64,000 nt of DNA from positions 1,994,308-2,058,307 of the forward strand of contig CP070686.1 in the NCBI GenBank assembly GCA_020353055.1. Direction: 5' to 3'. A program made the position numbers and the translations under genes. Positions 15,261 to 57,801 of this stretch are shown piece by piece. A model generated the notes under the pieces. The model was not told where the DNA came from. It ran no database searches and saw only the letters and a list, made by a program, of their open reading frames with translations. The stretch comes from Caldifarciminota bacterium. GTDB lineage: Bacteria > Hydrothermota > Tepidihabitantia > SM23-42. The first letter of the stretch is position 1. Each line of letters starts with the position of its first letter.

Positions 15261-15265
15261 GTCTA

Positions 15266-15293
15266 TTGACATAATTGTAATCCCCAATATAAT
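15266..15293 (+). promoter_or_regulatory. Promoter of the solute-binding/TonB fusion gene
   Basis: TTGACA (15266-15271), 16-base spacer, TATAAT (15288-15293); perfect consensus hexamers, with a leader of about 23 bases to the ATG at 15322. Confidence 0.88.
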
Positions 15294-15321
15294 CTTGTTA
15301 GTTGTGATACGGGAGGCTTAG

Positions 15322-17566: not shown

Positions 17567-19075
17567 TTATCTTGGCTTTAATACTCCTACAGGCAGGATT
17601 GTTTCCTCGGTGGATATGCCACCGTGCTGGAATGTATATTTGAATTCCCTTTCATACTCGGTAGGTTTCGTCGGGTATATGAAGTAGTAATCTTCCTTGG
17701 CGATGGCAAAGCGGACTGACGGATCCTCACTGGGTAAGCATATGTCCCCTGGATTGTTCAGAAGCAGAGCATTCTTTTTGTCCACTCTCAGGGCTGGACC
17801 GTATTTGTATCGAAGATTGGGTGATATCTCGCGTCCACCATAAATGATAGTAGGCCGCCGAACTCTTATGAAACCATGGTCGGTGGTAAGTATCAGACGT
17901 CTGTTGTTGGTCAGCAAACTTCTAAACAATTCGAATATAGGTGACATCGGGAACCAATAAGCCAGTATGTTTAGTAGAACCCTTTCATCGTCGAGTATAC
18001 CCTTTAAGTCACCACGTCCGGGGATGGAATGGATAAGCATATCAAAGAAATTTATGACGATGATCACAATCTCGGTCGATTCTCCTTTGATTTTCTCTAT
18101 ACTTTTCTCTATTTCGGTAATTGATGATAATTTGTAGAATGAGAAATTTACCCGCAGGTTATTACGCTTCAATTGTTCGTTGAACAGATCTCTTTCAAAT
18201 CTATTCTGCCCTTTTTCATCATATGTCCAGTATTGCGGATACTGTTGAACTATTTCCAGTGGTAATAGTCCAGCGAATATAGAGTTCCTTGAATAAGGCG
18301 TGGCTGTCGGCAATATCGAATAGTAGTAGTGATTGGTTATTTCATAGTAATCCTTCAAAAAGGGAATCAGTTTCATATACTGATCCAGGCGCATTGAGTC
18401 AAAAATCACAAAGTAGACCGGTCCATCGTTTAGCGTAGGGAAAACGATGTGGGAGAAAATTTGGTGGGACATGATAGGACCTTTGCCCCTGAGAAAATTA
18501 GCGTATTGGTTTTCAATATATTTGGCAAAGCCAGCGTTACCTTCTCGCTTCTTCTCTTCATGTATCGTTTTGAGGTCCTTGCTGCCGAACTCGAGGAGCC
18601 GTGTGTCCCACGACACGATGTTTCTGTAGTATTCAATCCATTCATTATAGTCTTTCGGTTCTATCATAGTTCGGAGCTGTGTAGAATATTCTTCCGCCAT
18701 CTTTTCCTCTATTATCACTCGGCGTTTCAGCGTGCGATTCAGTACGGAAAGAAGTTGATTGTAACTAAAGGGTTTTGTTATATAATCATCGACCCAACCG
18801 CCATAAGCCTGCGTCATCAGATTCTCTTCTTCACTCTTAGTGACCATAACGACAAGCTGTTGTGAGTTTTCGCTCTTGATTTTTCTGAGTACCTCGAGAC
18901 CATCTACTCCGGGCATGATTTCATCGAGAAAAATAAGATCGAATGATTCTTTATTTGCCAGTTTAACACCATCTTCACCGCTCGGAGCGGTTTTAACCTC
19001 ATACCCTTCTTTCTGGAGAAGGTAAATGAAAGGTTTCAGTAAATCTATTTCATCGTCGATCCATAGAAGTTTCAT
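17567..19075 (-). CDS. porX: PorX-like response regulator with PglZ/alkaline-phosphatase-fold effector
   Basis: 502 residues. An N-terminal receiver (1-120) has the acidic pair DDE (7-9), phospho-acceptor FLDEIMPG (D51), TKSEEE (about 79-84) and KPF (about 102). A linker leads to a C-terminal PglZ-type domain of the alkaline phosphatase superfamily: FDSMRLDQ near 228, PTATPYSRN near 256 (putative metal/nucleophile threonine), TTDHGF near 398 and QHGG near 485. This is the architecture of Porphyromonas PorX, which controls type IX secretion and whose effector domain is a zinc enzyme acting on oligonucleotides. It overlaps the kinase gene by 4 bases and is the last gene of the tig-clpPX operon. 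Receiver and effector residues seem intact. Confidence 0.88.
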   Translation of the reverse strand: MKLLWIDDEIDLLKPFIYLLQKEGYEVKTAPSGEDGVKLANKESFDLIFLDEIMPGVDGLEVLRKIKSENSQQLVVMVTKSEEENLMTQAYGGWVDDYITKPFSYNQLLSVLNRTLKRRVIIEEKMAEEYSTQLRTMIEPKDYNEWIEYYRNIVSWDTRLLEFGSKDLKTIHEEKKREGNAGFAKYIENQYANFLRGKGPIMSHQIFSHIVFPTLNDGPVYFVIFDSMRLDQYMKLIPFLKDYYEITNHYYYSILPTATPYSRNSIFAGLLPLEIVQQYPQYWTYDEKGQNRFERDLFNEQLKRNNLRVNFSFYKLSSITEIEKSIEKIKGESTEIVIIVINFFDMLIHSIPGRGDLKGILDDERVLLNILAYWFPMSPIFELFRSLLTNNRRLILTTDHGFIRVRRPTIIYGGREISPNLRYKYGPALRVDKKNALLLNNPGDICLPSEDPSVRFAIAKEDYYFIYPTKPTEYEREFKYTFQHGGISTEETILPVGVLKPR

Positions 19076-20208
19076 TTTTGCACTCCCGGTATATAGATTT
19101 CAAAAGATGTTCCCTTAGAACCTGTTTCCCTTAGAGATAATTTACCCTTATGGTATTCTTCGATTATCCTTTTCGTAAGGACTAAACCTAATCCCCATCC
19201 GTATTTTTTGGTTGTATATCCTGGTTTAAATATACTGCCGCCGCTTTTTATGCCTCTACCAGTATCGGTGATCTCGATAATCGCTCCGTTAATATCATAG
19301 GTTCTTATTGATATTTCACCGGCTTGTGCACCGATTGCATCCAGTCCGTTTTTCAATATATTTTCTATTGCCCACCCAAGGAGAACATCGTCGAATCTTA
19401 CTGCAGGTAAACTACGGTATTCCTCGATAAATCTGATCTGGGCGTGCGCGCGTCTTCTTATATAGTTGACTGAGCCTTTGATCGTATCAGTGGGGTCTTT
19501 TTCAACTAATCGTGGCGGAAGACCAATACGCGAGAATTTCTCAAGCACTTCACGCATCCGCATGGCGTCTTCATGAATTCCTTCATAAGTTTCAGATTCG
19601 ATGTTTCCTTTTATGGTTTCGAGCCAGCCTATGAGTGAAGATAACGGCGTTGCCAGTTGATGAGCAGTTTCTTTGGCGAGAGAATTCCAGATTTTTTCTT
19701 CAATGCTCTTCCGGTAAATCAAATAACCCCAAAATCCTAAAAATAGAAAGGCAATCAGAAAAACGGTTTCAACGAACGGCAGAATCTGTAAGGATTTGGT
19801 GAAAGGGGATAGTCCCCAGTGGACGTGACCGAGAAGGGTAGAATCGGCTCCATGTCTTATTACCATGGGTATAGGTTTCTGCACACGATCCAGTTTTTCT
19901 GCTGCTCTGTACAAATCTTTCTCTTCGACGTTCTTGGATGAGTATGGAGTTCCATCGGCGTCAGTCAAGATCACGGGAAAATCGATTCGCTTAATGACCA
20001 TTTCGTAGAACAGCTCAAGCAATCTTTCTTCGTCAATACTGGGGCCACGAGCGAACTCTGCGAACAGGCGCGAGGTCGTTTCTGTTTCTGTTCTTATGCG
20101 TTGGATCAAGTAGTTCGAATAGATATATGTCACGATACCTATCAGAGCGATCCCGATGAGGAAATAGATTGCCAGGGCTCGTGAGCTCAGTCGGTGTCTG
20201 AAAACCAT
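19072..20208 (-). CDS. PorY-like membrane sensor histidine kinase
   Basis: 378-residue inner-membrane kinase. Membrane segments lie at about 10-32 and 142-165, with a periplasmic sensor of about 110 residues between them. The H-box AKETAHQLATPLSSLIGW (phospho-acceptor His at about 181) has the AHQL(G/A)TP form typical of Bacteroidetes kinases of the PorY kind. The ATP-binding domain shows AIENILKNGLDAI (N-box), ITDTGRGI (G1) and YGWGLGLVLTKRI (G2). The stop overlaps the porX start by 4 bases, so it is the natural partner of PorX. It should sense an envelope state; the signal is unknown. PorY is not named in the gene symbol because the family is poorly resolved by eye. Confidence 0.82.
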   Translation of the reverse strand: MVFRHRLSSRALAIYFLIGIALIGIVTYIYSNYLIQRIRTETETTSRLFAEFARGPSIDEERLLELFYEMVIKRIDFPVILTDADGTPYSSKNVEEKDLYRAAEKLDRVQKPIPMVIRHGADSTLLGHVHWGLSPFTKSLQILPFVETVFLIAFLFLGFWGYLIYRKSIEEKIWNSLAKETAHQLATPLSSLIGWLETIKGNIESETYEGIHEDAMRMREVLEKFSRIGLPPRLVEKDPTDTIKGSVNYIRRRAHAQIRFIEEYRSLPAVRFDDVLLGWAIENILKNGLDAIGAQAGEISIRTYDINGAIIEITDTGRGIKSGGSIFKPGYTTKKYGWGLGLVLTKRIIEEYHKGKLSLRETGSKGTSFEIYIPGVQK

Positions 20209-44455: not shown

Positions 44456-47419
44456 TCAGTCAATCAACACAATCTTCTGTGCCGTTTCGGATCTAGGGGC
44501 GATCAGCCTTACGAAATAGATACCGGCGGGTACTCTGCGGCCCCGGTCGTCGAGTCCGTTCCAGAAAAACGGTTGTTGTGCTTCCCCTAGCACGGCATTG
44601 TCTATCAGCGTGGAGACACAGCGCCCGGACACATCATATACCTTGAGCGTGGTCTTCTGACCGGGTAATCCCTGCAAAGTGATGTTAAAACCGTACCGCG
44701 CCGGATTTGGATTGATGAGCAGCATTGGTGTCGCATGGCCACTGCTGAAATCCTGCTCTTTGGTAACACCTGTAGGAGGGACGCTGAAGTAGTTCATTAT
44801 TGCGGCAATCAGGTCGACCTTGGTTGATGGGGTAACGGAGTCGATCAGTCCACTGAGTTCAAAGGACAAACCGACGGTGCGGTTATTGGCCGCGACGCCG
44901 CAGCCGTAGTTGCTGCCGGTCTTCTTGAAGAGCAGTTGCGAGCCGCCGGTCGAATCGATGTAGTCGATCATGGTTGCTTCGCCCTGATAACCGAACGCCA
45001 TGTTCTGGGTGATCGTACCGTTGCAGCCGGTTACTCCTGCAAACAGGCCGATTGAATTATATACCGGGTCGATGCCAAAGAGCGGTCCAAAATCGTAGCC
45101 GTGGCTGACCAGCGGGCTGTACCAGACATCACCCCCCTCAAGATAAACATTGCCGCCTTCCAACTGCAGGTAGTGTTCAATTTCGTATCCTGTTTGACTG
45201 GTATCGCCGATAGCGTAATTCTCAGGATACACCCCGGCGCAGACATAAAGAGATCTGTAGAGGGAGAGAAGTCCGTACGGGAAACTGGTTGAGTAGTCAC
45301 CACCAAAACCCAGAGAATCAAGCAATGCGTCGATGACGGGTCCGCTTGAGTGATTCATGTCCGGATCCCACACAAGATAGTCTTTTTGTCCAACATGGAT
45401 TGGGAAATCATATGCCGCCGTATATACGCCTGCTGAAATGTGCAGCGAGACCATGGCGATGTAACCGATAGGGGTATTTGAGGCGGTGGTTAAAAGAAAA
45501 GGGTCGGACATATTCGAACCAATACTGTCCGGATAGATCGTCGTAAAAGTAACCATTGAGTCAACGATGGTCACAAAGGAATCGCTGCATGAAATTATGC
45601 CAGTAGGATTTTCTGCTTTGTACGAACCTGTATTCAATAGTTCTACATACAATTGACTCGTATCTCCGGCATTCGTATATTTAACATATTGATCAAAGTA
45701 ATAATCATGATATGAGATGATTGGTGCGTGGACAATGAAATCGAGGTTTGAAGTCCACGTTGCAGTTCCTGAGTCCGTAATACGGAGTTGCAGGTCGACC
45801 CCGATGAGGTCCGCACAGTTAGAGTCTATCACCACGTTGTAGCCGTCGGGATACACATGGACTGATTCATATGGAGCGATGTTGCCAAGGTATTTTATAG
45901 TATCGTAGAGGGTGCAAGGCATGCCGGGTGAATTTTTTTCGATTGCCGCCGATACACCGTAGGCCGTTGTATTACCCCAGTTCTTCAGACAGAAAGGTAG
46001 CTCAATATCTTCGCCCGGATTGGCTATACCGTCTCCGTTGCCACCCAATGAATCGAGCAATCTGTATGAATAAAGACTGACATATGGTCCGTTCATGTAC
46101 AAGACGGGACGGCCATTGTGATATGGTCTTAGATCACGTCCGGTAACCGTGATGAATACTGAGTCGCCGGGAATATTGAGGGTGTCGATAAATCGTATGC
46201 TGCCGAGATCGTCCGTATAGCCAGAGTGATAAAATGAGCTGTCCGATTTTGCCATTACACAAACGAGCGCACCCTGGACTGGTACGGAGTTGCTCTGGAC
46301 ATATACCGTTGCAGTACAGATTCCGGTATGGAAGTACATATTGTGTCCGACCACGATGGGCTTGGGCGTGCTGGTCCACATCAACATTTCCGGATCACCA
46401 AGACACATCCAACTATGGTATTCGATGAGATCATTGTATTCTGCATAATATGCCAGTCTACCAGCCTCGGCTGACGCGCCTAACGAACCCGTGTCACTAA
46501 AAAGACATTGAGTTGTAGCACGAGATAATACGCTGCGCATTTCTGCAGCCGCAAACAATGAAGTTGTCGTGCCGAAGAATCCGATTACTCCTTTTGATAC
46601 TGATGGTGTGCCAGCGATGGTCCAATCCCGGCCGATACCTTCGATCGTCGCACACGTTGCTGAAAGCACTACGGGCATCCTGTAACCGTTGGTCATCTGG
46701 GATGCATTTATGCCGGCGAACGGCCATAACCAGTCGCCTCCGGCAATGCCGCGGAATAGAATATAGGTCCTGCCTTCGTTTATTGCGTTGAGGACATCAA
46801 GGCTGTCATGGCCGAGTTCATAAGAGAACGAGTCAATATGGACGAAGTCTGCAGCGAGCATATACTGGTGGGCAAAGCGCGCGTCTGCCCAGTAAAGCTC
46901 TGCCGAGGATGGTTGGCCCTGTTCCCATTCGTTGACGATCGTTACACCTTTCCTGAACCACAGTGAATCAGACCCTGTGTCGGGGTTTCTCTCATAACCC
47001 AATATCTTGGCCACGACTGTCTTTGCCTGCACTGTGTCGGATACCCATAGGCGGCCATGGTATAGTTCATTGCGAAAATCTCCGTCGACGTTTGCATAGT
47101 AGTTGTCGCTGTATGAGGTAAGACTCACCGCGTGGACGAAGCGCGGGAAGGGCACCTGGTATTTATTGCCGACAATTAGCAAATACTCTGGTCTGGTTTG
47201 CCAGGTGTTGTAGGCATTTACGATGTAGTTTTTTATGTCGGTCGAATCAGCGCCTGTTTCGGAGAGCGTAACTATTTTTGCCCTGATACCCTTTTGCGTT
47301 TTCCAGGTAGCCAATGGTTCCAGGGCGGTTCTGTAATCATCATGTGTTATGATGAGGTAGCGCGCACCGGTTTCTTGCGCGAGTAGGAGGGAAGTAAATA
47401 GTGTCAGTAATGCCAGCAC
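44456..47419 (-). CDS. C25-like secreted protein 3, catalytic GHG motif lost
   Basis: 987 residues, paralogue of protein 2 over its full length. Signal peptide about 1-14 and C25-like domain (YLIITHDDYRTALEPLATWKTQKG, PEYLLIVGNKYQVPFPR). The GHG position reads FRGIAGGDW (near 225) and the cysteine is kept in LSATC (about 256). PGED-type beta modules, the shared YLVWDPD/YLEGGDVWYSPLV domain and a type A sorting domain (LKVYDVSGRCVSTLI, VPAGIYFVRL) follow. It starts with GTG at 47419, with no ribosome-binding site close by; a GGGAGG at 47449-47454 instead serves a two-codon GTG-CCA-TAA frame (47433-47441). The conserved tract with gene 2 suggests recent exchange. Confidence 0.83.
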   Translation of the reverse strand: MLALLTLFTSLLLAQETGARYLIITHDDYRTALEPLATWKTQKGIRAKIVTLSETGADSTDIKNYIVNAYNTWQTRPEYLLIVGNKYQVPFPRFVHAVSLTSYSDNYYANVDGDFRNELYHGRLWVSDTVQAKTVVAKILGYERNPDTGSDSLWFRKGVTIVNEWEQGQPSSAELYWADARFAHQYMLAADFVHIDSFSYELGHDSLDVLNAINEGRTYILFRGIAGGDWLWPFAGINASQMTNGYRMPVVLSATCATIEGIGRDWTIAGTPSVSKGVIGFFGTTTSLFAAAEMRSVLSRATTQCLFSDTGSLGASAEAGRLAYYAEYNDLIEYHSWMCLGDPEMLMWTSTPKPIVVGHNMYFHTGICTATVYVQSNSVPVQGALVCVMAKSDSSFYHSGYTDDLGSIRFIDTLNIPGDSVFITVTGRDLRPYHNGRPVLYMNGPYVSLYSYRLLDSLGGNGDGIANPGEDIELPFCLKNWGNTTAYGVSAAIEKNSPGMPCTLYDTIKYLGNIAPYESVHVYPDGYNVVIDSNCADLIGVDLQLRITDSGTATWTSNLDFIVHAPIISYHDYYFDQYVKYTNAGDTSQLYVELLNTGSYKAENPTGIISCSDSFVTIVDSMVTFTTIYPDSIGSNMSDPFLLTTASNTPIGYIAMVSLHISAGVYTAAYDFPIHVGQKDYLVWDPDMNHSSGPVIDALLDSLGFGGDYSTSFPYGLLSLYRSLYVCAGVYPENYAIGDTSQTGYEIEHYLQLEGGNVYLEGGDVWYSPLVSHGYDFGPLFGIDPVYNSIGLFAGVTGCNGTITQNMAFGYQGEATMIDYIDSTGGSQLLFKKTGSNYGCGVAANNRTVGLSFELSGLIDSVTPSTKVDLIAAIMNYFSVPPTGVTKEQDFSSGHATPMLLINPNPARYGFNITLQGLPGQKTTLKVYDVSGRCVSTLIDNAVLGEAQQPFFWNGLDDRGRRVPAGIYFVRLIAPRSETAQKIVLID
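44788..45142. repeat. Near-identical tract shared with C25-like gene 2 (copy 2)
   Basis: Second copy of the tract at 41761-42115, in the same orientation, coding for the same part of the protein (SGGSQLLFKKTGSNYGCGVA region). Confidence 0.85.
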
Positions 47420-47471: not shown

Positions 47472-48752
47472 TTATTCGAGCAAGACTAATTTTTCACTGA
47501 CGATCTGCTCTTGCGTGCTGAGTTCAGCAAAATAGATCCCGGCTGGTAAACGCTTCCCATTACTGTCTGTGCCGTCCCACAAAACATATGATTCTTGATA
47601 CTCGATACTTGATGCTTGATTGAAGGCCTTCACCAAACGGCCGCTCGCGTCGTATATTTTTAGATCCATATGCTCTGCGCCGTGTGCCGTGTTGAAATGG
47701 ATTCGGGCGGTGTTTGAGAATGGGTTGGGTATAGCACTTAGCGTCATTTGAGTTGCGAGTTCGGGCTCCAGTTCTTCGATACCCACCCTCTGCCAGTTCT
47801 GGCCTCCGTCGGTCGTACGCAGGATATGATCATATCCGCATGCTAAGCCATTCTGGTGGTCAATGAAGTCAACATCGAAAAGCGTGCTGTCTGCCGGACT
47901 GCTCTGTATGGTCCAGGTATTGCCTCCGTCTGTAGTATGTATCATTGAGCCGGATTTACCGACAGCCCATCCCTCGAGTTCAACAAAATCAACTGCCCTC
48001 AGGTAATACACATTAGGGGGAACGCTTACGGGATTCCAGGTCATGCCACCGTCTGTCGTTTTCCAGACAATAGGTGAATAGTCACTTTCATCACCGCCGA
48101 CTACAATACCCTCGTTGATATTAAAAAAGTGGATGTCAAAGAAGTCTTCGTAACCACCGGCATGATAGCCGTCAAGAGTATCCCAAAAAATTCCACCGTC
48201 ATTGGTTGCGACAATGTATCCCTGACCGGTCGCGAGGGAATCGGGCCAGCCCGCGCATATCCACCCATCCCACTGGTTGACGAAGGATACTCCGTAGTAC
48301 TCTGCCTGGTACCAATCGGTGAAGATGCGTTCCCAAAGCGTTCCGCCATTAGTTGTACGGGCAAGAGCACCGTCGCCGCCGACCGACCAGCCGATGTTCT
48401 GATTATAGAATTCTATGCGTGTTCCATATTTAGAGAACCCCGCTTCCTGCCGTTCCCAGAGATTGCCCCCATCACTCGTACCGAGAATTTCACCCGCGTG
48501 TAGGTTGTGTTTTCCAGTTGTCCATGCATGTGAAGCATCGTAACATGTGACATCCCATAACCTGCGTGCGATAGTGTCCGGGGGGACTTCCTGTGGTGCC
48601 CATGTTGAACCACCGTCGCTTGTGTGCAGAATTAACGTCGTATCAAGGCATACTATCCAGCCATTGACGTTATCGGGTGCTAATGTGCACCCATGATAAT
48701 TGATGGCGAATGCTGTTGAAGCAAGCGCCATGAATAATAACAAACCCTTCAT
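47472..48752 (-). CDS. YCF48-like beta-propeller protein with T9SS-type sorting domain
   Basis: 426 residues. A signal peptide (about 1-16) is followed by seven or so YCF48/sialidase-like repeats with the recurring TSDGG..W, TTNGGTLWERI, TTDGGMTWNPV, HTTDGGNTWTIQ, RTTDGGQNWQRV motif, which folds as a propeller in the photosystem II factor Ycf48. The C-terminus is a type A sorting domain (IPNPFSNTARI, LKIYDASGRLVKAF, LPAGIYFAEL), so it is probably exported to the surface by type IX secretion. Function unknown; such propellers often bind ligands or other proteins. AAGGAGG precedes the ATG, and a tandem dyad lies 20 bases further upstream. It is flanked by C25-like genes on the same strand. Confidence 0.82.
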   Translation of the reverse strand: MKGLLLFMALASTAFAINYHGCTLAPDNVNGWIVCLDTTLILHTSDGGSTWAPQEVPPDTIARRLWDVTCYDASHAWTTGKHNLHAGEILGTSDGGNLWERQEAGFSKYGTRIEFYNQNIGWSVGGDGALARTTNGGTLWERIFTDWYQAEYYGVSFVNQWDGWICAGWPDSLATGQGYIVATNDGGIFWDTLDGYHAGGYEDFFDIHFFNINEGIVVGGDESDYSPIVWKTTDGGMTWNPVSVPPNVYYLRAVDFVELEGWAVGKSGSMIHTTDGGNTWTIQSSPADSTLFDVDFIDHQNGLACGYDHILRTTDGGQNWQRVGIEELEPELATQMTLSAIPNPFSNTARIHFNTAHGAEHMDLKIYDASGRLVKAFNQASSIEYQESYVLWDGTDSNGKRLPAGIYFAELSTQEQIVSEKLVLLE

Positions 48753-48838: not shown

Positions 48839-51800
48839 CTAATCTACGAGGACTACTTTTCTGGTAATGTTAACGTTGTCTCCTCGGAGAACAACGAAAT
48901 AGATGCCTTCGGCGACTCTTCTATTTAATGAATCAGTACCGTCCCACAAGACCGATGACGGATGACCGATGACAGATAGCTGTGCTGAGAGATCCTGGAC
49001 CACTCGTCCAGCAACATCATAGATCTTCAATGCTGCTTGTCGGTTAGCCGTTAATTGGTATCTGATATTAGCGCGTTGTTTGAACGGGTTGGGTGATATG
49101 CTGAGCATATTACCAGGTTCAGACCTGGTGCTAAATTCGGATACGCCGGTGAACGTATCTGGTGGGTTGGTAGTGAATTTTATCGCCCGGCCATTAGACA
49201 AGGGTGCTGCGGCAGCAGGGTAGAGGTTAGCGTAAGTATACTCAATGCCGGTCACATGATCATGATCCTCAATGCCGACTGTGGCATAGTTATGCCAGCC
49301 GTCGTCGTTCGTTATATCCATGTACTGGAAGACTATTTCTCCGTCGCCTGTTTGTGTGGGGTAGTATTGCGGATCGTAGAGAATCACTTCGAATGTTTGG
49401 AGTTCGGATGGCGTTGGATTGGTAGGATCATGAATATGCTGGATACGCGAATACTCGACAACAAAACGATGACCGGCTGCATCATGCCAGTAACACACGT
49501 TGCTGCTCGAATCCGTTGCCGTCGGATCCAGGTCATCCCAGAATGGTGCTATGAGCAGCGGCGGTCCGCCCGCAGCCGGTATGTGCCAATTGTACATATC
49601 GGCGAGGCTGGTCGAATCCATCGCGATATACCCGTCTGAACTTATGGAGACGCGGTCATACCAGTTCCCGTAATACTTGAAGCTAAAGGGTAATGCTACA
49701 GTTTTGGTCTCGTCGGCCGCCAGACTGACCGTATCGCCCGCACCTCCGTGTGCCGGGTCGATCTCTATCCAGCCGTAAGTGGGAGCGTCAGGATAACCCA
49801 GATCTGTGTTGTCATAGGCAAAATACCCATAATCGTCGGGGCCAAGCGGTTCGGCAGAATCCACAACGCCAATCGTCAGTTTGAAGCCGGTTGTGTCAAC
49901 GAAGCCATTATCGCCGGTTGTTATTAGTGCAAACCGCACTTCCGTGCCTGGTGTGAGTGATGAATTTGCCGCGAGTGTGAAATAATTCGAACTGTTCGTT
50001 GCAGAATCACCTAACGCGATATTCCCGAAAAATCCCAGGGAATCGGTCACAATCAAGCCGCTATTCGCCGATCTAATTGTTCCTGCAACATCGCTCGCCT
50101 CAAGCCCGCCATTATTCTCTATGCACAACATGAGATCGCGTGTTTCACCTGGCTCGAGTATGCCATTACCATCCATCACTTGATTCCACTTATAGATTAG
50201 ATTCGGTGCCTTTGCAGTGATCCATATACTTCCGGACCAATTCCCCTGCGTCGATGTAATATCAAGATTGAATTTCAAGATGTGATCGTTTCGAACATCT
50301 TGTGAAACGTTGAAAGTGAAAGCAGAAGACGTTGCAGTAGCACCAGGATTTATATCCGGATATGATTTGATCGAATCCGTGACCGTAACCTGGGGATCGT
50401 CCGTGGATAAATGCGCCGAAACGTTGGTTGCGGTAGTCGACGTACCATAATTCTTAAGTGTTACGCCGAGGTCTATTGTTTCCCCCGGATTCACCTGGCC
50501 GTTATTATTTCCGCTCGGATCGCTGATAGTGTCGGACTCGTGTCCGACAAAAACCGATGAGTTACTCACAACACTGTGACCGACATATGGTTTGAAGTTA
50601 TGTTTAGTGATTGTAACGAATAGTGTATCAGGTGTTGATGTCGCGAAGTTGAAATCCGCGTTGCCGGAAGCATCTGTGAATTCTATTTCTTTGACTTCAT
50701 TTTCCTTATAAATGCTGACCATCGCACCATGGACTGGCTGTGAGCCGGTATTTGTGACATGAACCGAGAATGAGTTTGTCCCTGAAGGGAGAGATGATGC
50801 GTGTGTAACGATAAATGAATCAGGGGTGCCAGTCCACACTTCCAGCGACGGGTCGCCCAGGAGATTGAATGCATGAAAATAGAATGAACTACCTGTTGCT
50901 ATGGATGTATCACCCGGGAAGTTGACAAAAACTTCCATCTTTCCGCGGTACAATGCCGCACCCAGGCTGTATATATGTTCTTTCAGCAGGGCCCAGTAGA
51001 TTCCGTAGTCAAGGCAGTTATTCCATCGGCTGTGGCTCTGTGGTGATGAGGCGCCAAAAAACGCCACTGCACCTTTGGGAGTTAGGGGGTTACCAGCCCT
51101 CAGCCATGCTTCGCCAAAACAATTTCCGGCGAAATTGCCGGTCCAACATACGATGCTCGTAACGATCGGTAATTTCCAACCGTTATTCAGAGCGTAGACG
51201 TCGGTGTTGTAGAACGTTGGCCAGGGCCAGCCGCCAATGTCGCCGTCACCAGAACGGTAATTCACGAAAGTTACACCGTTGTTCACTGAACTGGTGATCG
51301 CGGAAGGTGGCATTGGATCGAACACCGTATCTACGGCGCTGTAGCCATACTCGAAGAGTCTGTCTCGTACCCATCGCTTCGTCGGTATTGGTGTGGTCAT
51401 ATTGGCGGGTAGATTGGCACCAACCACAAGAGCGCGCGAATACCACGATGGATCGCTCATGGTAGGGTTCGTTTCGTAACCGATGATCTTCGCTACGACC
51501 GTATTTAATTCGCTCTCCATGCTGACTGATAAGCGGCCGATGAGCAACTCAGAAAAGAAATCGTCACCTTCGATCAAAGTAAAAGGATGGTCGGTTGCAG
51601 ATGGGTTGGAAAATGATTGTATATGATTCACGTCACCAACCAGCAGTACATATTCGGGTTGGGGAGACCAGGTGTTGTATGCATCTGCGATATAGTCTCT
51701 TATCTGCGCTGGCGTGCCTCCAGTTTGTGCAGTTGTTCTTATTTCAACGTGCCATCCCTTCTTTTCTTTCCAACGTGCCAGCGGCTGAATTTCATCGACG

Positions 51801-52279
51801 AAGTCACTGGGTGTGATGATGAGATACCCCTGAGGTCTTTGACAACCGGTGTTTTCAAAATTGAGGATCAGGTCCTCGAACACCATGCTCATTGACTGAT
51901 TCAGTGTCAGCGGTTTTGAGGGAGGCGAGAAATCTATTCTTAGGTCTGCCGATTTCACGAAATGCTTCACATTATCTTGCATGAACGAAGGTTCTATCAT
52001 GATCGGGTAGAGTGGTGTGCCTTTTATCATTACAGGTTTGCCGATACGGACGGGTTCGGTTTCGACATGATCCCGGACACTGATTGACGAATCCACTTCT
52101 GCCATGTGATATGCATAGGTTGGCTGACTTTCCGACATTATGAAACGCGTTATGGGCAGCTGTTCATTCCTCTTGTATTCAGAGAATTCAACCTGCAAAG
52201 TTGCCGTCGAGGGTGTGGATGACGTAATCATGATTTGGTCTTCACCAGTAGCAAGGACGAAAATCAGGGCGAATATCAT
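48839..52279 (-). CDS. C25-like secreted protein 4 with N-terminal pro-domain, catalytic His lost
   Basis: 1146 residues. A signal peptide and a propeptide-like beta region (about 15-150) precede the C25-like domain (YLIITPSDFVDEIQPLARWKEKKG, PEYVLLVGDVNHIQSF). The GHG position reads YRSGDGDIGGWPW (near 342) while cysteine is kept in SIVCWTG (about 378) and CFGEAWLRAG follows as in gingipains. PGET-type modules (GNNNGQVNPGET, GNGILEPGET), the GPDDYGYFAYDNTD domain shared with protein 1 and a type A sorting domain (LKIYDVAGRVVQDL, VAEGIYFVVL) complete it. It overlaps the LVIVD lipoprotein gene by 4 bases and is the last gene of the pgs operon, so it should be co-expressed with it. Confidence 0.83.
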   Translation of the reverse strand: MIFALIFVLATGEDQIMITSSTPSTATLQVEFSEYKRNEQLPITRFIMSESQPTYAYHMAEVDSSISVRDHVETEPVRIGKPVMIKGTPLYPIMIEPSFMQDNVKHFVKSADLRIDFSPPSKPLTLNQSMSMVFEDLILNFENTGCQRPQGYLIITPSDFVDEIQPLARWKEKKGWHVEIRTTAQTGGTPAQIRDYIADAYNTWSPQPEYVLLVGDVNHIQSFSNPSATDHPFTLIEGDDFFSELLIGRLSVSMESELNTVVAKIIGYETNPTMSDPSWYSRALVVGANLPANMTTPIPTKRWVRDRLFEYGYSAVDTVFDPMPPSAITSSVNNGVTFVNYRSGDGDIGGWPWPTFYNTDVYALNNGWKLPIVTSIVCWTGNFAGNCFGEAWLRAGNPLTPKGAVAFFGASSPQSHSRWNNCLDYGIYWALLKEHIYSLGAALYRGKMEVFVNFPGDTSIATGSSFYFHAFNLLGDPSLEVWTGTPDSFIVTHASSLPSGTNSFSVHVTNTGSQPVHGAMVSIYKENEVKEIEFTDASGNADFNFATSTPDTLFVTITKHNFKPYVGHSVVSNSSVFVGHESDTISDPSGNNNGQVNPGETIDLGVTLKNYGTSTTATNVSAHLSTDDPQVTVTDSIKSYPDINPGATATSSAFTFNVSQDVRNDHILKFNLDITSTQGNWSGSIWITAKAPNLIYKWNQVMDGNGILEPGETRDLMLCIENNGGLEASDVAGTIRSANSGLIVTDSLGFFGNIALGDSATNSSNYFTLAANSSLTPGTEVRFALITTGDNGFVDTTGFKLTIGVVDSAEPLGPDDYGYFAYDNTDLGYPDAPTYGWIEIDPAHGGAGDTVSLAADETKTVALPFSFKYYGNWYDRVSISSDGYIAMDSTSLADMYNWHIPAAGGPPLLIAPFWDDLDPTATDSSSNVCYWHDAAGHRFVVEYSRIQHIHDPTNPTPSELQTFEVILYDPQYYPTQTGDGEIVFQYMDITNDDGWHNYATVGIEDHDHVTGIEYTYANLYPAAAAPLSNGRAIKFTTNPPDTFTGVSEFSTRSEPGNMLSISPNPFKQRANIRYQLTANRQAALKIYDVAGRVVQDLSAQLSVIGHPSSVLWDGTDSLNRRVAEGIYFVVLRGDNVNITRKVVLVD

Positions 52280-53250
52280 CTTTCCTCCTCGACCGCTATC
52301 ACGAGTCCCATATCGCGATCGGCGATATAGATCGTATCATTTCTTACATAGATACCGTTCGCATATGAAGTCTCCATGCTGCCGTACAATTGAGGCTCGG
52401 CAGGGTCAGATAGGTCGATCACCTGAAGTCCTCCATCGCCGTCGGCAACATATGCTTTGTCGTCATGAATAAAGACGTTGTTTGCATAATCCGGCGTGTC
52501 GTACTGGCTTATCATCGAAGGATTGTCAATATCCGATACATCTATGATGATCAAACCGCCGCGTCCGTCGGCAATGTATGCGTAGTTCCCGGTGGCAAAA
52601 AGCCCCTGTGCATTCGATGGAGTGTCGATCCAACCTGCTAAAGCAGTGCTGTCGGGTCTGGATAGATCGATGATCTGTAAACCCATTTGCTCGCAACCAA
52701 GGAATGCTATTGAATCAACCATGGATACGGCTCTGATATCTCCGGGCGTCGTGAATCTTCGTACGTAGGAAGGGTACTGTGGATATGAATACACATCCTC
52801 AACATGAAACCAGTATCCTGCGGCAATATAGACGTACATCGTATCATCTGGTAGTGCCGCGACATCATAGGCATAGATCGATGGATCCTGCCCGATAAAT
52901 GTTGGGTTCGTTGGATCTGCGATGTTCAATATGACCAGACCGCCACTGGTGGATGAGCCGAGTGCAATGTAGGCGAAAGTGTCGCGTACCGCAACCCCAC
53001 CCACATCCCGGTCTGCCACGTATTGTCCAATGACAAACGTAGATTCGGGATCGCTGATATCGACGATCTGCAGTCCTCCTTGTCCGTTTGCGACGTATGC
53101 AAGGCTATCAACCAGCACGACCTTCTTAGCGTAGCCGGGCAACGGGCACTCGCCGACAACGGCAAAGGATGCCAGTTGTTCACTGACTTCAGGTCGTCCG
53201 CAAAATAGCAGCGTGATGAAAACTAACCAAAGGTATTTCATGTTTTTCAC
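52276..53250 (-). CDS. LVIVD-repeat propeller lipoprotein of the pgs operon
   Basis: 324 residues. The N-terminus (LWLVFITLLFCG) carries a lipobox-like LLFC with cysteine 17, so it is probably a lipoprotein. Seven LVIVD repeats follow (SLAYVANGQGGLQIVDISDPE, FAYIALGSSTSGGLVILNIADP, AFLGCEQMGLQIIDLSRPD, YAYIADGRGGLIIIDVSDID, KAYVADGDGGLQVIDLSDPA), expected to make a propeller. It lies 8 bases after the barrel gene and overlaps the fourth C25-like gene by 4 bases. Its place in the operon suggests an outer-membrane accessory role, which is inference. It is distinct from, but of the same type as, the LVIVD lipoprotein at 5204-6220. Confidence 0.78.
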   Translation of the reverse strand: MKNMKYLWLVFITLLFCGRPEVSEQLASFAVVGECPLPGYAKKVVLVDSLAYVANGQGGLQIVDISDPESTFVIGQYVADRDVGGVAVRDTFAYIALGSSTSGGLVILNIADPTNPTFIGQDPSIYAYDVAALPDDTMYVYIAAGYWFHVEDVYSYPQYPSYVRRFTTPGDIRAVSMVDSIAFLGCEQMGLQIIDLSRPDSTALAGWIDTPSNAQGLFATGNYAYIADGRGGLIIIDVSDIDNPSMISQYDTPDYANNVFIHDDKAYVADGDGGLQVIDLSDPAEPQLYGSMETSYANGIYVRNDTIYIADRDMGLVIAVEEER

Positions 53251-53258
53251 ACAACCCC

Positions 53259-54251
53259 CTAGTAATAAAATTCGAAACCTGCTCCGGCGCGGTAGCGCGT
53301 ATAATCCTTGATACTATTGATGTCCGATAGAACTTCGGATGTGGCCCTCCGCCATTGGCGCATCAATGTCAATTTCAGCCGGAGACCGGTGATCAATCGC
53401 GGGTAGATTCCAAGCATGATTCGGTGCCTATGGTCAATACGCCCGAAATGCAGCGAATCTTCGCCAGTTGATGTTTCGTAACTCCTAAAACTATAATTGT
53501 ATGACAGTTTCATTGTGGTGGGCAGAACAGCGACCATTTGAACGGAGAGGTTACCACTAAGCGTATGCTGATAGAATGAACCGTCCGGCGTTATGTCAAC
53601 ACCTGACGTGGACGCATCGGCCGAATCGGTATAGGAATTTCTGAATTCGTAACCAAAGGCAAAATCGATGCGCTTACGCAACATTTTTTCCAACCCAAAC
53701 GATACGACGTGACCGCTTGCATCATAGCGGTTGAATTCTGGAATGTAATTATCCCACCGATGTGCATATCCAGCAATGAGGGTGATATCGTGTAAGGTCA
53801 TGAATGATATTTTTCCTCTTGCGGTGTGATAGGTAACTTCGCACCCTATATAGTCGGTGCTTCCGTCGTACGGGTCACGGTAATACCTTATCAGATAACC
53901 TGGAATTACCTGGTAGGATAACTTCACGGCGTACCTCCCGAACGATTGTCGGATCCCGAACGTATATCTCTGGTAATTTTTTTGACGGTTGAGCAAATAG
54001 TTATCGGTATTGAGGTCGATACTGAAGGTTGTGGTGCGCTTGTCGATAAATTTGTTTCTCACCAGCAGGGTAAAGTCGAAGGATGTGATAAGGTCATCGT
54101 AGGTTTCAAACGGGAATCTATATTGGCGTACTCCATTGATAAAGTCATCAATGTATTCTTGAGAATAAGCGTAGACGTTGTTGTCATAGTTGAAATCAAC
54201 ATCCAGATCGTATGAATAATCCCAGAAACTAAATAGCAGGAAGATGATCAT
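53259..54251 (-). CDS. Probable outer-membrane beta-barrel protein of the pgs operon
   Basis: 330 residues not assignable to a known family. A short signal-like N-terminus (MIIFLLFSFWDYS) is followed by alternating hydrophobic/polar strands with many aromatics and tyrosines (FDFTLLVRNKF, TFSIDLNTDNYLL, YAVKLSYQVIPGYLIRYY, IDFAFGYEFRNSY, TMKLSYNYSFRSY), ending in GAGFEFYY, a typical barrel terminus. About 14-16 strands fit. No plug or POTRA domain. It overlaps the upstream periplasmic protein gene by 4 bases. It is the best candidate for an outer-membrane pore or anchor for a polymer made by PgsB/C; that is inference. A dedicated barrel in this operon is not part of the standard pgs set. Confidence 0.65.
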   Translation of the reverse strand: MIIFLLFSFWDYSYDLDVDFNYDNNVYAYSQEYIDDFINGVRQYRFPFETYDDLITSFDFTLLVRNKFIDKRTTTFSIDLNTDNYLLNRQKNYQRYTFGIRQSFGRYAVKLSYQVIPGYLIRYYRDPYDGSTDYIGCEVTYHTARGKISFMTLHDITLIAGYAHRWDNYIPEFNRYDASGHVVSFGLEKMLRKRIDFAFGYEFRNSYTDSADASTSGVDITPDGSFYQHTLSGNLSVQMVAVLPTTMKLSYNYSFRSYETSTGEDSLHFGRIDHRHRIMLGIYPRLITGLRLKLTLMRQWRRATSEVLSDINSIKDYTRYRAGAGFEFYY

Positions 54252-55078
54252 TTTTCCTCAACCAAGAATCTTAAAGCTGCGCTTTCGGCGATGGTACCGG
54301 CCAAGTTGAAGCGGAGCTGGTGCGTACCTGCACCTATGTTAACGTGAAAGCTACGAGCATTTGACGGTACTATGTTCTTTCTATCCTTGTAGATGATCAT
54401 CTGTGATTTGTAACTCTTGAGAGGAAATTTCTCGGTTTTGCCATTATCTTCAACCAGGATCGTGTAATTCTGGTCGCCTATCATCTTTTCATCGTAATTG
54501 AGCCTGACGATCACGCGGAGACGCAGTGGCCCGTTCAGACGCACCGTGACAGCCATGTCGTTTTTCAACTCGTAATATTTAACAATTCTCTCTTCTTCAA
54601 TTGCCTCAATGATCGCGCTGTATTCGGCGGCTGGAACTTCCTCCCAGCGTTTGGGCGACTCATAGGCGAACTTAACGAGTATCGTGTCCTGCGGCGATGC
54701 CCAGTGGGTTAGTTTGTAATGATTCAGCCCTTCTGGTACCTCAATGTAGAATGATCGCCACTTGCTCAATGACCGACCCTTTTTGTCTCTTGACACGCTG
54801 GATTCATCTGACTCCAGCGTTATGATATCTTCATCTATTTCATTTTTCTGCAATATCACCTTGTAGATCTCGCTGCCCAAACTGCCCTTGGGCCAGATGA
54901 TCCTGGTGTATACCCTTAGGTATGTCGGTCCTTCAACCGAGAACGAAAGCGGTTGATTTTTTACCAGTAAGAGATACTCATCGGTCTTCTTGGTAACTAT
55001 CTCAATTTCCCACTTCTTGTAGGGTTCTATAGTCTGCAACTGCGAAAGGAGGCAGAGGCCCATCACAAGATTAATCAT
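54248..55078 (-). CDS. Periplasmic protein with two-fold internal repeat, pgs operon
   Basis: 276 residues, family not recognised. A signal peptide (about 1-15) precedes two related halves: about 30-130 (LLLVKNQPLSFSVEGPTYLRVYTRI, RSFYIEVPEGLNHYKL) and about 165-265 (YELKNDMAVTVRLNGPLRLRVIVRL, RSFHVNIGAGTHQLRF). Each holds a GPxxLRV strand, a charged stretch and a ARSF/WRSF strand before a glycine turn, so it is likely a duplicated beta-sandwich. It overlaps pgsW by 4 bases and the barrel gene by 4 bases. It may bind polymer or barrel in the periplasm; this is inference. Secretion is supported by the signal peptide; no lipobox is seen. Confidence 0.65.
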   Translation of the reverse strand: MINLVMGLCLLSQLQTIEPYKKWEIEIVTKKTDEYLLLVKNQPLSFSVEGPTYLRVYTRIIWPKGSLGSEIYKVILQKNEIDEDIITLESDESSVSRDKKGRSLSKWRSFYIEVPEGLNHYKLTHWASPQDTILVKFAYESPKRWEEVPAAEYSAIIEAIEEERIVKYYELKNDMAVTVRLNGPLRLRVIVRLNYDEKMIGDQNYTILVEDNGKTEKFPLKSYKSQMIIYKDRKNIVPSNARSFHVNIGAGTHQLRFNLAGTIAESAALRFLVEEK

Positions 55079-56148
55079 TTTTTCTCCTTTCTTAAATAAC
55101 TGTCGACATCATAACGCAGTACAACGAACAAAATTATAACAAGTACGAGTGCTGCTATTATGGCAATCGTAACAGAATATTTATATTCATAGTAAAGACG
55201 TCCTTCTCCAGGTTTTGGTAACGGTATCGGCGCCACGCCTAGTTCATACTCGCGGGCCAGAGTGTTTACATCTGTCAGATTTATGACTGGAATACCGTTT
55301 TGCGAAAAACGCGCAATTAATCCCTGACCTGTCGGTACAGCATGTGGTTTTATCAACCCGATGTCGGTTGTTGCGCCGGCAAGTGCCGTCGTCCGTTCAC
55401 CCACATTTATGAAGAGTCTAACCGTACCGAAAGAAAGAAACTTCTCCATTTTCCTCTCGATCATATCATCCAGATTGCGGGCATCGAGTATGGGTACACT
55501 ATTCCTGTCCGCGGCCTGTTCAATGATCTCACGGCCCGCAGGGCTCAAACCGCGGCCTACATCATCCTCGCCTCCAAGTGATGCAGTAACGGTTTTTTCT
55601 TTTACGATGCCCCGGTCAGCGATGACGTTTTCCATGTCCAAATATGTGAGTTGTGGATAGTTAGCCCCCCACATGGACGCGCTGACAGAGGTTATGATGA
55701 TCGGTTTTATGTTCAGTACTTCGATTGCGCTGATCACATTGATGTTAAGAGCTGGGAGTGACCCTGAAAGAGAGATGGCCACAGTATCATTTTCCCCTAT
55801 CCCTGCGTTTTTTATCAATTGGACAACCAGCGCGGCGAAGTTGGGGTTGGTTGATGATAATTTTGAGTCCAGATCACCCCGCTCCGTGGTGATGGGGGAA
55901 TATTGTAGGCCAATCATCCCCGTTTCATTTGGGTCGTTTATCCGGTCTATAGGAATTCCAATCTGCATTACCGTATCCTTGATCACGCCAAAGGCTCTCG
56001 CTGCGGTTTCTGCAGCACGCATTTTTTCGTTATGGTATTTTGCTTCGACCTTTGTTTTTGAATTCAGTTCGACGACCATCAACACAACAGTGATGGTTGT
56101 TACGATGAGTAGAGATACAATAGAGATCTTGCCTTCGCGTTTCTTCAT
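55075..56148 (-). CDS. pgsW: PgsW-like poly-gamma-glutamate system protein
   Basis: 357 residues with a membrane segment near 9-28 and another near 322-345, and a large extracytoplasmic part between them (NDTVAISLSGSLPALNINVI, TSVSASMWGANYPQLTYLD, ASLGGEDDVGRGLSPAGREI, INVGERTTAL). The order pgsB-pgsC-pgsW, with ATGA overlaps at both joints, is how I recognise it; PgsW proteins are known from diderm poly-gamma-glutamate loci and their biochemical role is not settled. The cytoplasmic tail is short and basic (RYDVDSYLRKEKK). It probably links the synthase in the inner membrane to the periplasm. PgsA (CapA) is not seen nearby. Confidence 0.72.
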   Translation of the reverse strand: MKKREGKISIVSLLIVTTITVVLMVVELNSKTKVEAKYHNEKMRAAETAARAFGVIKDTVMQIGIPIDRINDPNETGMIGLQYSPITTERGDLDSKLSSTNPNFAALVVQLIKNAGIGENDTVAISLSGSLPALNINVISAIEVLNIKPIIITSVSASMWGANYPQLTYLDMENVIADRGIVKEKTVTASLGGEDDVGRGLSPAGREIIEQAADRNSVPILDARNLDDMIERKMEKFLSFGTVRLFINVGERTTALAGATTDIGLIKPHAVPTGQGLIARFSQNGIPVINLTDVNTLAREYELGVAPIPLPKPGEGRLYYEYKYSVTIAIIAALVLVIILFVVLRYDVDSYLRKEKK

Positions 56149-56597
56149 GGCAACACCATCCCGTTATGAATGATGATAATAACCAGTCGCACCAGGCTCG
56201 CAACGATTATCATCGCCGAAAGGGTGGGAATGATACCCTGCCTGGCGATCCAGTAGGCGATCAAACCGGGGATGACGAAACCGACGGTCTGAATATTCAT
56301 GCTGAAAGCATTAAGGCTGATCGTGGGTGAAATGCGAGTCAAATAAGCAATGAGGTAACCGACCAGTATTGATATGATCAAGAGTCTGCGGCCATATATG
56401 ATGACATATGAAGAAAGTAATTTGATTATCATGTAGGTAATCAAACCGGCGATTATGGTGGCAATGACCTGTAGCGGATGATGTAGCACAAGAGCAATAT
56501 AACCAGGAACGACAATGCCACCGGCCGCGAGTCCAATGGTCTCAGTTAAGATGAGACTCAAGAACATTCCTATCCCAACGGATTCTATTAGTATCAT
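56145..56597 (-). CDS. pgsC: PgsC-like membrane subunit of poly-gamma-glutamate synthase
   Basis: 150-residue inner-membrane protein with about five helices, the size and layout of PgsC/CapC. Conserved features: IGLAAGGIVVPGYIAL near 21-36 and VIPGLIAYWIARQG near 107-121, with VPGY and IPGL positions typical. PgsC partners PgsB in polymerising glutamate through gamma bonds. It overlaps pgsB (upstream) and pgsW (downstream) by 4 bases each. No catalytic residues are claimed; the assignment rests on sequence, helix layout and gene order. Confidence 0.85.
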   Translation of the reverse strand: MILIESVGIGMFLSLILTETIGLAAGGIVVPGYIALVLHHPLQVIATIIAGLITYMIIKLLSSYVIIYGRRLLIISILVGYLIAYLTRISPTISLNAFSMNIQTVGFVIPGLIAYWIARQGIIPTLSAMIIVASLVRLVIIIIHNGMVLP

Positions 56598-57763
56598 TTA
56601 TTCCTCTCATGAAGCAGGAACTGCTTCACCATTTCTTCACCATAGCCCACCGTATTTCCCATAGCAAAGATGAGGGAACGGTTAGAAACCGTATCGGCCA
56701 CGGCCTGTACGGTATTCTCCGGCTTCTTCTCGCCGGCATCGAGCACTTTTTCATGTTCGATGGTCTTGTAAAGTTTCCTTGCCAGGATATGCGTTCCACT
56801 GCCGGTGAGTATGTAGCGATCGGCCGGCATACGATCCTTGATGAGTTTTGCCATCTGGAACGAACGATCGATCCGGTCAATTCGACAATTTATGAGAACA
56901 TTTATCTCCCGGTAATTTTTGTCGATCATCTGCCATATCATGTAGGTTGAATCCGGGTCGTTGGCAGCCATTGCATTGATCAGGGTGACTTCTTTCTCAC
57001 CCAGCGCAAGCAGGTGTTTCCTTAAGACACCCGGGTCAGGGGATGCGTAGAGCATAGCAGCAAGTGCGTCTTTTTCACTGACACCATATTTTCTGCAGAC
57101 ATCAAGCGCAAGAGCCACGTTTGATTTGTGTTCAATGTAATGAAAATCGACAATCATGGTATCGGGGATTCTATTTGCGTCTGAGAAATGGTGATCGATC
57201 TTCTTCGTTCGCAAAATAGATTGACAGTCCTTCAATATGCCCTTCTCGCCGACAAAGAGAGTTGCCCTATTTGGCACAGCATTGAGAAAGTGTTTTGTAA
57301 TATCCTTGATTGACGGACCCATCACATCGAGATGGTCAGGACGTACATTGGTAATCACAACCGTGGTTGGTTTTACGATCTGCACTGCCTCTGAGTACTG
57401 TAGATCCGGTCTCAACGCCATGCATTCGAGTACGATGATGTCTGGTTTATCTTTGCTTGCTTTCCTGAATATCTTAACTTGCTCCCGAATGTTGGGCATG
57501 CCCAGCCGTATGACAGGTTGTTCATTTCGGTTATCGGTTATGAAACTGGCTCTCGTCCCCGTCGTTTTGGCGATCACTTTCTTACCGCCTCCTCTGAGTC
57601 CGGCTGCTATTAATCGAGTAACCGATGATTTTCCACGACTTCCGTTCACCCAGATGCGAACCGGTATTGACTTCACTCGTTTCTCATGATTGACCTTCTC
57701 AATTCTGAGAAAGAGTACGTAGAGTCCTATGAGGACCAAAACAGCATAAATTCCAAAAAACAT
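56594..57763 (-). CDS. pgsB: PgsB-like ATP-dependent poly-gamma-glutamate synthase
   Basis: 389-residue Mur-ligase-like enzyme that activates and joins glutamate in gamma linkage. An N-terminal membrane segment (about 3-20) precedes the ATP site VNGSRGKSSVTRL (about 39-51, GxRGKSS), TTGTRAS near 64, ECMALRPDLQ near 115 and TNVRPDHLDVMG near 137. Its length matches PgsB/CapB. The start is set at the ATG at 57763 because the promoter (-10 at 57774-57779) puts transcription at about 57767; the GTG at 57793 and ATG at 57784 are inside or upstream of the promoter. The mRNA therefore has a leader of about four bases. It is the first gene of a seven-gene operon. Other polyamide substrates cannot be excluded. 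Confidence 0.88.
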   Translation of the reverse strand: MFFGIYAVLVLIGLYVLFLRIEKVNHEKRVKSIPVRIWVNGSRGKSSVTRLIAAGLRGGGKKVIAKTTGTRASFITDNRNEQPVIRLGMPNIREQVKIFRKASKDKPDIIVLECMALRPDLQYSEAVQIVKPTTVVITNVRPDHLDVMGPSIKDITKHFLNAVPNRATLFVGEKGILKDCQSILRTKKIDHHFSDANRIPDTMIVDFHYIEHKSNVALALDVCRKYGVSEKDALAAMLYASPDPGVLRKHLLALGEKEVTLINAMAANDPDSTYMIWQMIDKNYREINVLINCRIDRIDRSFQMAKLIKDRMPADRYILTGSGTHILARKLYKTIEHEKVLDAGEKKPENTVQAVADTVSNRSLIFAMGNTVGYGEEMVKQFLLHERNK

Positions 57764-57773
57764 ATTAACTCTT

Positions 57774-57801
57774 ATTATACCCATAATAGCCACCGTGTCA
57801 A
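57774..57801 (-). promoter_or_regulatory. Promoter of the pgs operon, leaderless type
   Basis: Minus-strand TTGACA (57796-57801), 16-base spacer, TATAAT (57774-57779); full consensus. Predicted start near 57767, four bases before the pgsB ATG. Confidence 0.82.

Follow-up and report, generated by a model that had tools for sequence, protein, structure and literature searches.

A conserved operon from a Caldifarciminota bacterium as a candidate trans-envelope machine for poly-gamma-glutamate synthesis and export

Poly-gamma-glutamate (gamma-PGA) is a large polyanion, and how it crosses the second membrane of a diderm cell is an open question. The gamma-PGA synthesis set of Bacillus is PgsBCA(E)/CapBCADE, and the synthase-dependent exporters of exopolysaccharides include BcsB/BcsC for cellulose, AlgK/AlgE for alginate and PgaA/PgaB. 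PgsBC, the PgsW family (TIGR04332) and PgsBC(W) sets in diderms are already known. The CapA of Francisella is annotated with the TIGR04332 name, 'poly-gamma-glutamate system protein' (PMC5362203), and in one study capBCA was dispensable for the capsule of the live vaccine strain (LVS), yet it matters for fitness (PMC4688374). In Cloacimonadota, a PGA operon has been reported together with a PGA-like extracellular matrix that embeds the cells and is stained by 4′,6-diamidino-2-phenylindole (DAPI); that report names only CapB, CapC and CapA (PgsF), likens the operon to those of Gram-positive producers and does not mention the outer membrane in its main text (Calusinska et al. 2026, PMC13082233). 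Gram-negative producers are read by the Gram-positive model of a synthase plus CapA, even in this recent work, and we found no description of an outer-membrane step or exporter for gamma-PGA in the open-access literature. In this study, we analysed a minus-strand operon (positions 48839-57801) in a 64,000-nucleotide stretch of contig CP070686.1 from a Caldifarciminota bacterium, hereafter the window, which may offer an answer. We consider it probable, though well short of certain, that the locus encodes a trans-envelope machine for gamma-PGA synthesis and export in a diderm cell. What is new is a pair of unnamed protein families, here called Dup and Bar, that accompany PgsBCW in about ten lineages; Bar is a confidently predicted barrel.

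Synthase genes, gene order and promoter

The promoter and the first five genes of the operon, in the order of transcription, are as follows.

57774-57801, minus strand: sigma-70-type promoter TTGACA-16-TATAAT, 12/12 consensus positions, the sole such site in 10.7 kb
56594-57763, minus strand: PgsB, poly-gamma-glutamate synthase ligase (TIGR04012 396 bits, cut-off 222.7; N-terminal transmembrane segment; length as in relatives)
56145-56597, minus strand: PgsC, polytopic inner-membrane partner of PgsB (TIGR04011 121.7 bits, cut-off 96.5; CapC Pfam family 110 bits)
55075-56148, minus strand: PgsW, inner-membrane protein (TIGR04332 290.7 bits, cut-off 100)
54248-55078, minus strand: Dup, secreted protein of two tandem jelly rolls, proposed to guide the polymer in the periplasm (predicted fold, homologous halves)
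53259-54251, minus strand: Bar, 14-stranded outer-membrane beta-barrel, proposed export pore (predicted structure)

PgsB, PgsC and PgsW were assigned by the curated cut-offs of NCBIfam, in which TIGR04012 and TIGR04011 are equivalog models for PGA synthesis. All three score above them, which supports the initial annotation of the locus, made from the DNA letters alone, as a putative diderm operon of the gamma-PGA type. The synthase is the Mur-ligase-like PgsB, with its P-loop present (motif GSRGKSS), and not a GT2-type glycosyltransferase. PgsC adjoins PgsB with a 4-base overlap. PgsW carries transmembrane segments at both ends (residues 8-26 and 326-344), and the domain of about 300 residues between them is presumably periplasmic. 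Searches of PgsW, Bar and PgsB against PDB sequences returned no relatives, and PgsW is hence without a structural template.

Seven genes had been described as lying head to tail with ATGA joints behind one consensus promoter. All seven open reading frames, the last two encoding an LVIVD-repeat lipoprotein and a C25-like protein, lie at the positions first given for them on the minus strand, and ATGA overlaps are read at five junctions (B/C, C/W, W/Dup, Dup/Bar and LVIVD/C25); Bar and LVIVD are separated by 8 bases. The promoter stands about 11 bases 5′ of the likely PgsB ATG, in the gap shared with a divergent ClpB-like gene. Since its -10 box falls inside the GTG-started PgsB frame, PgsB most likely starts at ATG 57763 rather than at GTG 57793, giving a protein of 389 amino acids, the length seen in relatives, and the mRNA would be nearly leaderless. 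The extent first proposed holds for the seven genes and not for their end at C25: after an 86-base gap the same-direction run goes on with a BNR/Ycf48-like gene and C25-like genes, and the conserved part extends through BNR (47472-48752) and at least one C25-like gene.

As the initial annotation had noted, PgsA/CapA (PGA_cap) is absent from the operon. A search of the rest of the genome gave a divided answer: CapA-type PGA_cap proteins are encoded elsewhere, whereas CapD is absent, with no PF01019 (CapD/GGT) match across the whole genome. Among relatives in the class, PGA_cap does not track PgsW (36/6 against 14/5, p 0.22), and no PGA_cap at all is present in several genomes that have PgsW and are more than 90% complete. 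A supply of PgsA in trans by these proteins is thus unsupported by their distribution, though possible in single genomes. The earlier proposal that the periplasmic protein, the barrel and the lipoprotein together replace PgsA is better divided in two: PgsW is more likely the PgsA counterpart at the inner membrane, and Dup and Bar would add an outer-membrane step that monoderms need not have.

Predicted folds of Dup and Bar and their co-inheritance with PgsW

Neither Dup nor Bar matches any Pfam or NCBIfam family. Dup, first described as a signal-peptide protein with two similar halves, does have homologous halves (hhalign 99%, E 6e-19). Its AlphaFold (AF2) model, with a predicted local distance difference test (pLDDT) of 89.5, comprises two beta sandwiches, each half a jelly roll, and its best matches among solved structures are sandwiches of the carbohydrate-binding-module type, among them CBM22 tandems and the cellulose-secretion protein BcsB. 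R59, R108 and R192 are conserved residues of Dup. For Bar, the AF2 model (pLDDT 91.4; predicted template-modelling score 0.86) has 14 strands with the clean in/out alternation of an outer-membrane barrel, so that the 'probable beta-barrel' of the initial annotation is now a confident model and a non-barrel fold was not predicted. When facing is derived from strand alternation, and not from coordinates, the nearly invariant Arg 122, 204, 256, 271 and 301 point inwards together with Asp 23, 53, 167 and 273. Residues Y22, N25, S30, F37, D52, N88, D265 and H268 are invariant across phyla, and conserved residues away from the lumen occur in YDDN and D..H.GR.D motifs.

The nearest folds of Bar are CymA and OmpG, with chitoporin and the 'bacterial polysaccharide outer membrane secretin' (4y25) also among the matches. 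Since CymA, OmpG and chitoporin are uptake porins, Bar and Dup might together take up or recycle gamma-glutamyl material and stand beside the synthesis genes for regulation only. We hold this to be very improbable, because fusions join Dup domains to Bar, their neighbour is PgsW rather than a hydrolase or an ATP-binding cassette importer, and the operon shows no PGA hydrolase. The conserved motifs outside the lumen raise a different alternative, as they might form a docking surface on the periplasmic side. In that case the product, either gamma-PGA or a short oligomer of gamma-glutamyl units, would remain in the envelope to fill or tether the periplasm, with Dup and Bar anchoring it to the outer membrane and no exit. 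That Francisella capBCA is unneeded for the capsule yet matters for fitness (PMC4688374) fits such retention. An anchor, however, would not need as much as a 14-strand barrel of the porin type whose nearest folds are CymA and OmpG, and the Cloacimonadota, which share the operon, are reported to lie within an extracellular matrix stained by DAPI (PMC13082233); we regard retention as unlikely.

Export across the outer membrane, the reading that we favour, draws on the joint inheritance of the two families. In the 61 related genomes of the class, PgsW (TIGR04332) occurs in 42/61, Bar in 41/61 and Dup in 40/61, and the co-occurrence of PgsW with Bar (Fisher p 3e-10) and with Dup (p 2e-11) is strong, both values being made optimistic by kinship; Dup and Bar are nearly confined to genomes in which PgsW is also present. 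Nearly all class loci on long enough contigs keep the order PgsB-PgsC-PgsW-Dup-Bar-LVIVD-C25-BNR-C25, even where the identity of Dup and Bar falls to about 22-30%. Three loci break this order: L054 (genome G015, PgsBCW only), L057 (genome G002, where the module is split, with about 47 kb between a truncated PgsW and the Dup and Bar genes) and L063; in four genomes that depart in presence or absence (G014, G016, G024 and G054), the matches sit at the ends of contigs. In one family (L067-L069) only PgsB-C-W-Dup-Bar-LVIVD is found, so the C25/BNR part is separable.

Beyond the class, GTDB genomes were scanned with a PgsW alignment, and the sample consists of the 80 best matches to the PgsW of the window, which leans towards its relatives. 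At the 52 loci where the sequence runs on for at least 3.5 kb after PgsW, Dup comes next in 46 (48 with two PgsW-Dup fusions), Bar is present in 40 and LVIVD in 35. The order PgsB-C-W-Dup-Bar is kept at 20-30% identity in about ten lineages, including WOR-3/Stahlbacteria, Hydrothermota, Bacteroidales, Eisenbacteria, Gemmatimonadota, Krumholzibacteriia, KSB1, Ignavibacteriae/Melioribacter, Neomarinimicrobiota, Cloacimonadota and others; these names come from the titles of metagenome-assembled genomes, and single ones may be wrong. Dup and Bar follow PgsW directly in the Cloacimonadota loci (L140, L143, L148 and L151). In Flavobacteriia, PgsB-C-W-Dup is followed by another secreted barrel-like protein, which we did not accept as a Bar homologue given its weak match (hhalign 63%); at one locus it comes near DUF2490, below the cut-off. 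We also sampled 148 genomes evenly across the phylum to which a Bacteroidales record (L094) belongs. PgsW is present in 4 of them; 3 of these 4, and no other genome, carry Dup, and the strong Bar matches fall in those 3 as well, with the genes always side by side (p 8e-6). The fourth PgsW lies at a contig end. The genome of that record (G064) holds two PgsW copies, on contigs C25 and C46, of which only the first is adjoined by Dup and Bar. The expectation that the periplasmic protein and the barrel, and less strictly the LVIVD protein, accompany pgsBCW is thus borne out across phyla.

Physical and evolutionary links between Dup and Bar point in the same direction. At nine loci, from Eisenbacteria, Gemmatimonadota, Krumholzibacteriia and unnamed bacteria, a single protein carries a Dup-type domain N-terminal to Bar. 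Such fusions locate Dup on the periplasmic side and link it to the barrel, and the two families have the most similar divergence patterns (Spearman 0.77). The two PgsW-Dup fusions (L133/L135) look real, with a third hydrophobic segment; a further candidate, L122, was set aside since the C-terminal transmembrane segment of PgsW is missing and the join may be an assembly error.

The proposed export route and the surface proteins

In the mechanism that we propose, the ATP-dependent ligase PgsB and PgsC would polymerize glutamate at the inner membrane, and PgsW, in the place of PgsA/CapA of Bacillus, would pass the chain to the periplasm. The Dup jelly rolls may bind and guide the anionic chain, as BcsB does for cellulose, towards the arginine-lined 14-stranded Bar, the putative outer-membrane exit pore. 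The LVIVD lipoprotein and the C25-like and BNR proteins, the latter two presumably secreted by the type IX secretion system (T9SS), would be accessory and may gate the exit or hold the polymer at the surface. Gene content and order, the promoter, the deep co-inheritance, the predicted folds and the fusions are what we show; the identity of the polymer, its outward movement, its binding by Dup and the pore role of Bar are inferred. This model is argued for by the PgsB, PgsC and PgsW scores above curated cut-offs, the conserved order and co-occurrence, the nine Dup-Bar fusions and the Spearman value of 0.77, the barrel with inward Arg and the CBM22/BcsB-like folds, as well as by PGA_cap not tracking PgsW and by the DAPI-stained matrix around Cloacimonadota with the same operon (PMC13082233).

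Several observations weigh against export. On its inward face, Bar has only a small surplus of positive charge (21 K+R vs 16 D+E). The fold matches of Dup have low template-modelling scores (0.2-0.3) and indicate no more than a 'jelly roll', and the signal peptides of Dup and Bar are unusually short in this genus. The dispensability of Francisella capBCA for the capsule means that PgsBCW need not imply an exported one. Finally, genuine PgsBCW stands without Dup or Bar in the near-complete G015 (L054, L084), and PgsBCW stands alone in L086 (Nitrospirae GWB2_47_37), a genome with no Bar anywhere; export would be dispensable or different in these two. The PgsW of L086 is 46% identical to that of the window, which suggests that a bare synthase set was transferred. 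These two genomes would also suit a chance or lineage-inherited arrangement without joint function, which is scarcely credible in view of the same order at 20-30% identity in about ten lineages, the near-identical phyletic distribution and the fusions.

The proteins encoded beyond Bar are as follows.

52276-53250, minus strand: LVIVD-repeat beta-propeller lipoprotein, accessory (PF08309 131 bits)
48839-52279, minus strand: C25-like surface protein with a T9SS tail, catalytic His lost and Cys378 kept, accessory (PF01364 206 bits)
47472-48752, minus strand: BNR/Ycf48-like propeller with a T9SS tail, conserved next gene (PF14870 95 bits; same position in relatives)
44456-47419, minus strand: second C25-like protein with a T9SS tail, conserved next gene in order (PF01364 146 bits)

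Most relatives of the LVIVD protein show C-x-[RK]-P after a hydrophobic stretch. In the Bacteroidales record L094, an HGSNAT_cat-type membrane acyltransferase-like gene (14376-15512) follows LVIVD, and open reading frames of similar size follow it in other Bacteroidales loci. Elsewhere in the window (3096-6220, minus strand), a second LVIVD-type protein of 338 amino acids overlaps by 1 base a 702-residue protein with a carboxypeptidase-regulatory-like domain.

The operon C25 protein aligns with gingipains across the whole catalytic domain. We aligned 72 related C25 proteins, mostly from Pgs loci, together with the PorU of the same genome (G000:C1:2594129; NF033707 447 bits, cut-off 420). The Cys is kept in 73/73, and the His column is never His in the 72/72 non-PorU sequences, being W, E, D, I, Q, S, N or R (mostly W/E/D/I/Q) within a YR-G motif, whereas PorU has a normal GHG there. 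The operon protein was rejected as the sortase PorU (62 bits against the cut-off of 420, with the genuine PorU elsewhere), and a role as an active peptidase is unsupported, its His-Cys dyad being incomplete. As the His is replaced throughout, the Cys always kept and the PorU of the genome normal, it is unlikely to be an ordinary peptidase or sortase; on this alignment, the C25 clade at Pgs loci (e.g. 48839-52279 and 44456-47419) would be either a pseudo-peptidase or one of altered chemistry. The suggestion that C25 trims or anchors the polymer is weakened accordingly. Nor are LVIVD and C25 universal parts, as first implied, since both are missing from Cloacimonadota and Flavobacteriia loci that keep PgsB-C-W-Dup and a barrel.

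SprA and PorU are encoded in the genome, so export of the C25 and BNR proteins by the type IX system is plausible. Many other proteins of the genome also carry T9SS tails, and the operon has C25-like genes as neighbours on its upstream side in Bacteroidales and on its downstream side in WOR-3. All this could be accommodated if PgsB/C added glutamate to a lipid, glycan or surface protein as a modification for T9SS cargo, with C25 and BNR as clients. Cloacimonadota, Flavobacteriia and family f5, however, include loci with PgsB-C-W-Dup-barrel and no neighbouring C25/BNR, and PgsB and PgsC exceed the equivalog cut-offs for PGA synthesis, which makes cargo modification improbable. Returning to gamma-PGA export, a bolder version, which we offer tentatively and would not expect to hold in full, is a complete and widespread polyamide secretion system in which altered C25 proteins and propellers delivered by the T9SS capture gamma-PGA at the surface, so that a polymer exporter meets a protein secretion system.

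Two further features of the window were observed. At 17567-19075 and 19072-20208 on the minus strand, a PglZ-domain response regulator adjoins a histidine kinase, an architecture that we take to be that of the T9SS regulator PorX with a partner kinase. At 15322-17376 on the plus strand, a 684-residue open reading frame fuses SBP_bac_5 (a family-5 solute-binding domain) to a TonB C-terminal domain, an unusual combination.

Comparison with described systems

The locus shares with Bacillus PgsBCA(E)/CapBCADE the orthologues of PgsB and PgsC by curated models. It differs in that the operon has no PgsA/CapA or PgsE and possesses PgsW, Dup and an outer-membrane barrel, in a genome without CapD/GGT. 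Francisella capBCA resembles it as a set of the PgsB-PgsC-PgsW type; we know of no outer-membrane module described for Francisella. The loci that we find in Cloacimonadota carry PgsB-C-W-Dup-Bar, whereas only CapB, CapC and CapA (PgsF) were named in the published operon of that phylum (PMC13082233). Dup and Bar would supply a genetic marker to tell exported from retained gamma-PGA, and a set of components with which diderm production hosts could synthesize and secrete gamma-PGA. The C25 proteins of the operon share with gingipains and PorU the C25 domain and the catalytic Cys, and differ from them in the replaced His, in the YR-G motif that surrounds it in 72/72 sequences, and in the presence of a true PorU elsewhere in the genome.

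The architecture resembles that of BcsB/BcsC, AlgK/AlgE and PgaA/PgaB, in which an inner-membrane synthase is likewise combined with a periplasmic polymer-binding part and an outer-membrane barrel; the jelly rolls of Dup resemble those of BcsB, and the secretin 4y25 is among the matches of Bar. Unlike these exporters, the locus has no tetratricopeptide-repeat scaffold, no glycosyltransferase and no sequence homology to them, its barrel is a 14-strand one of the porin type, and its polymer would be a polyamide. The Dup/Bar system would be a polyamide counterpart to the alginate and cellulose exporters.

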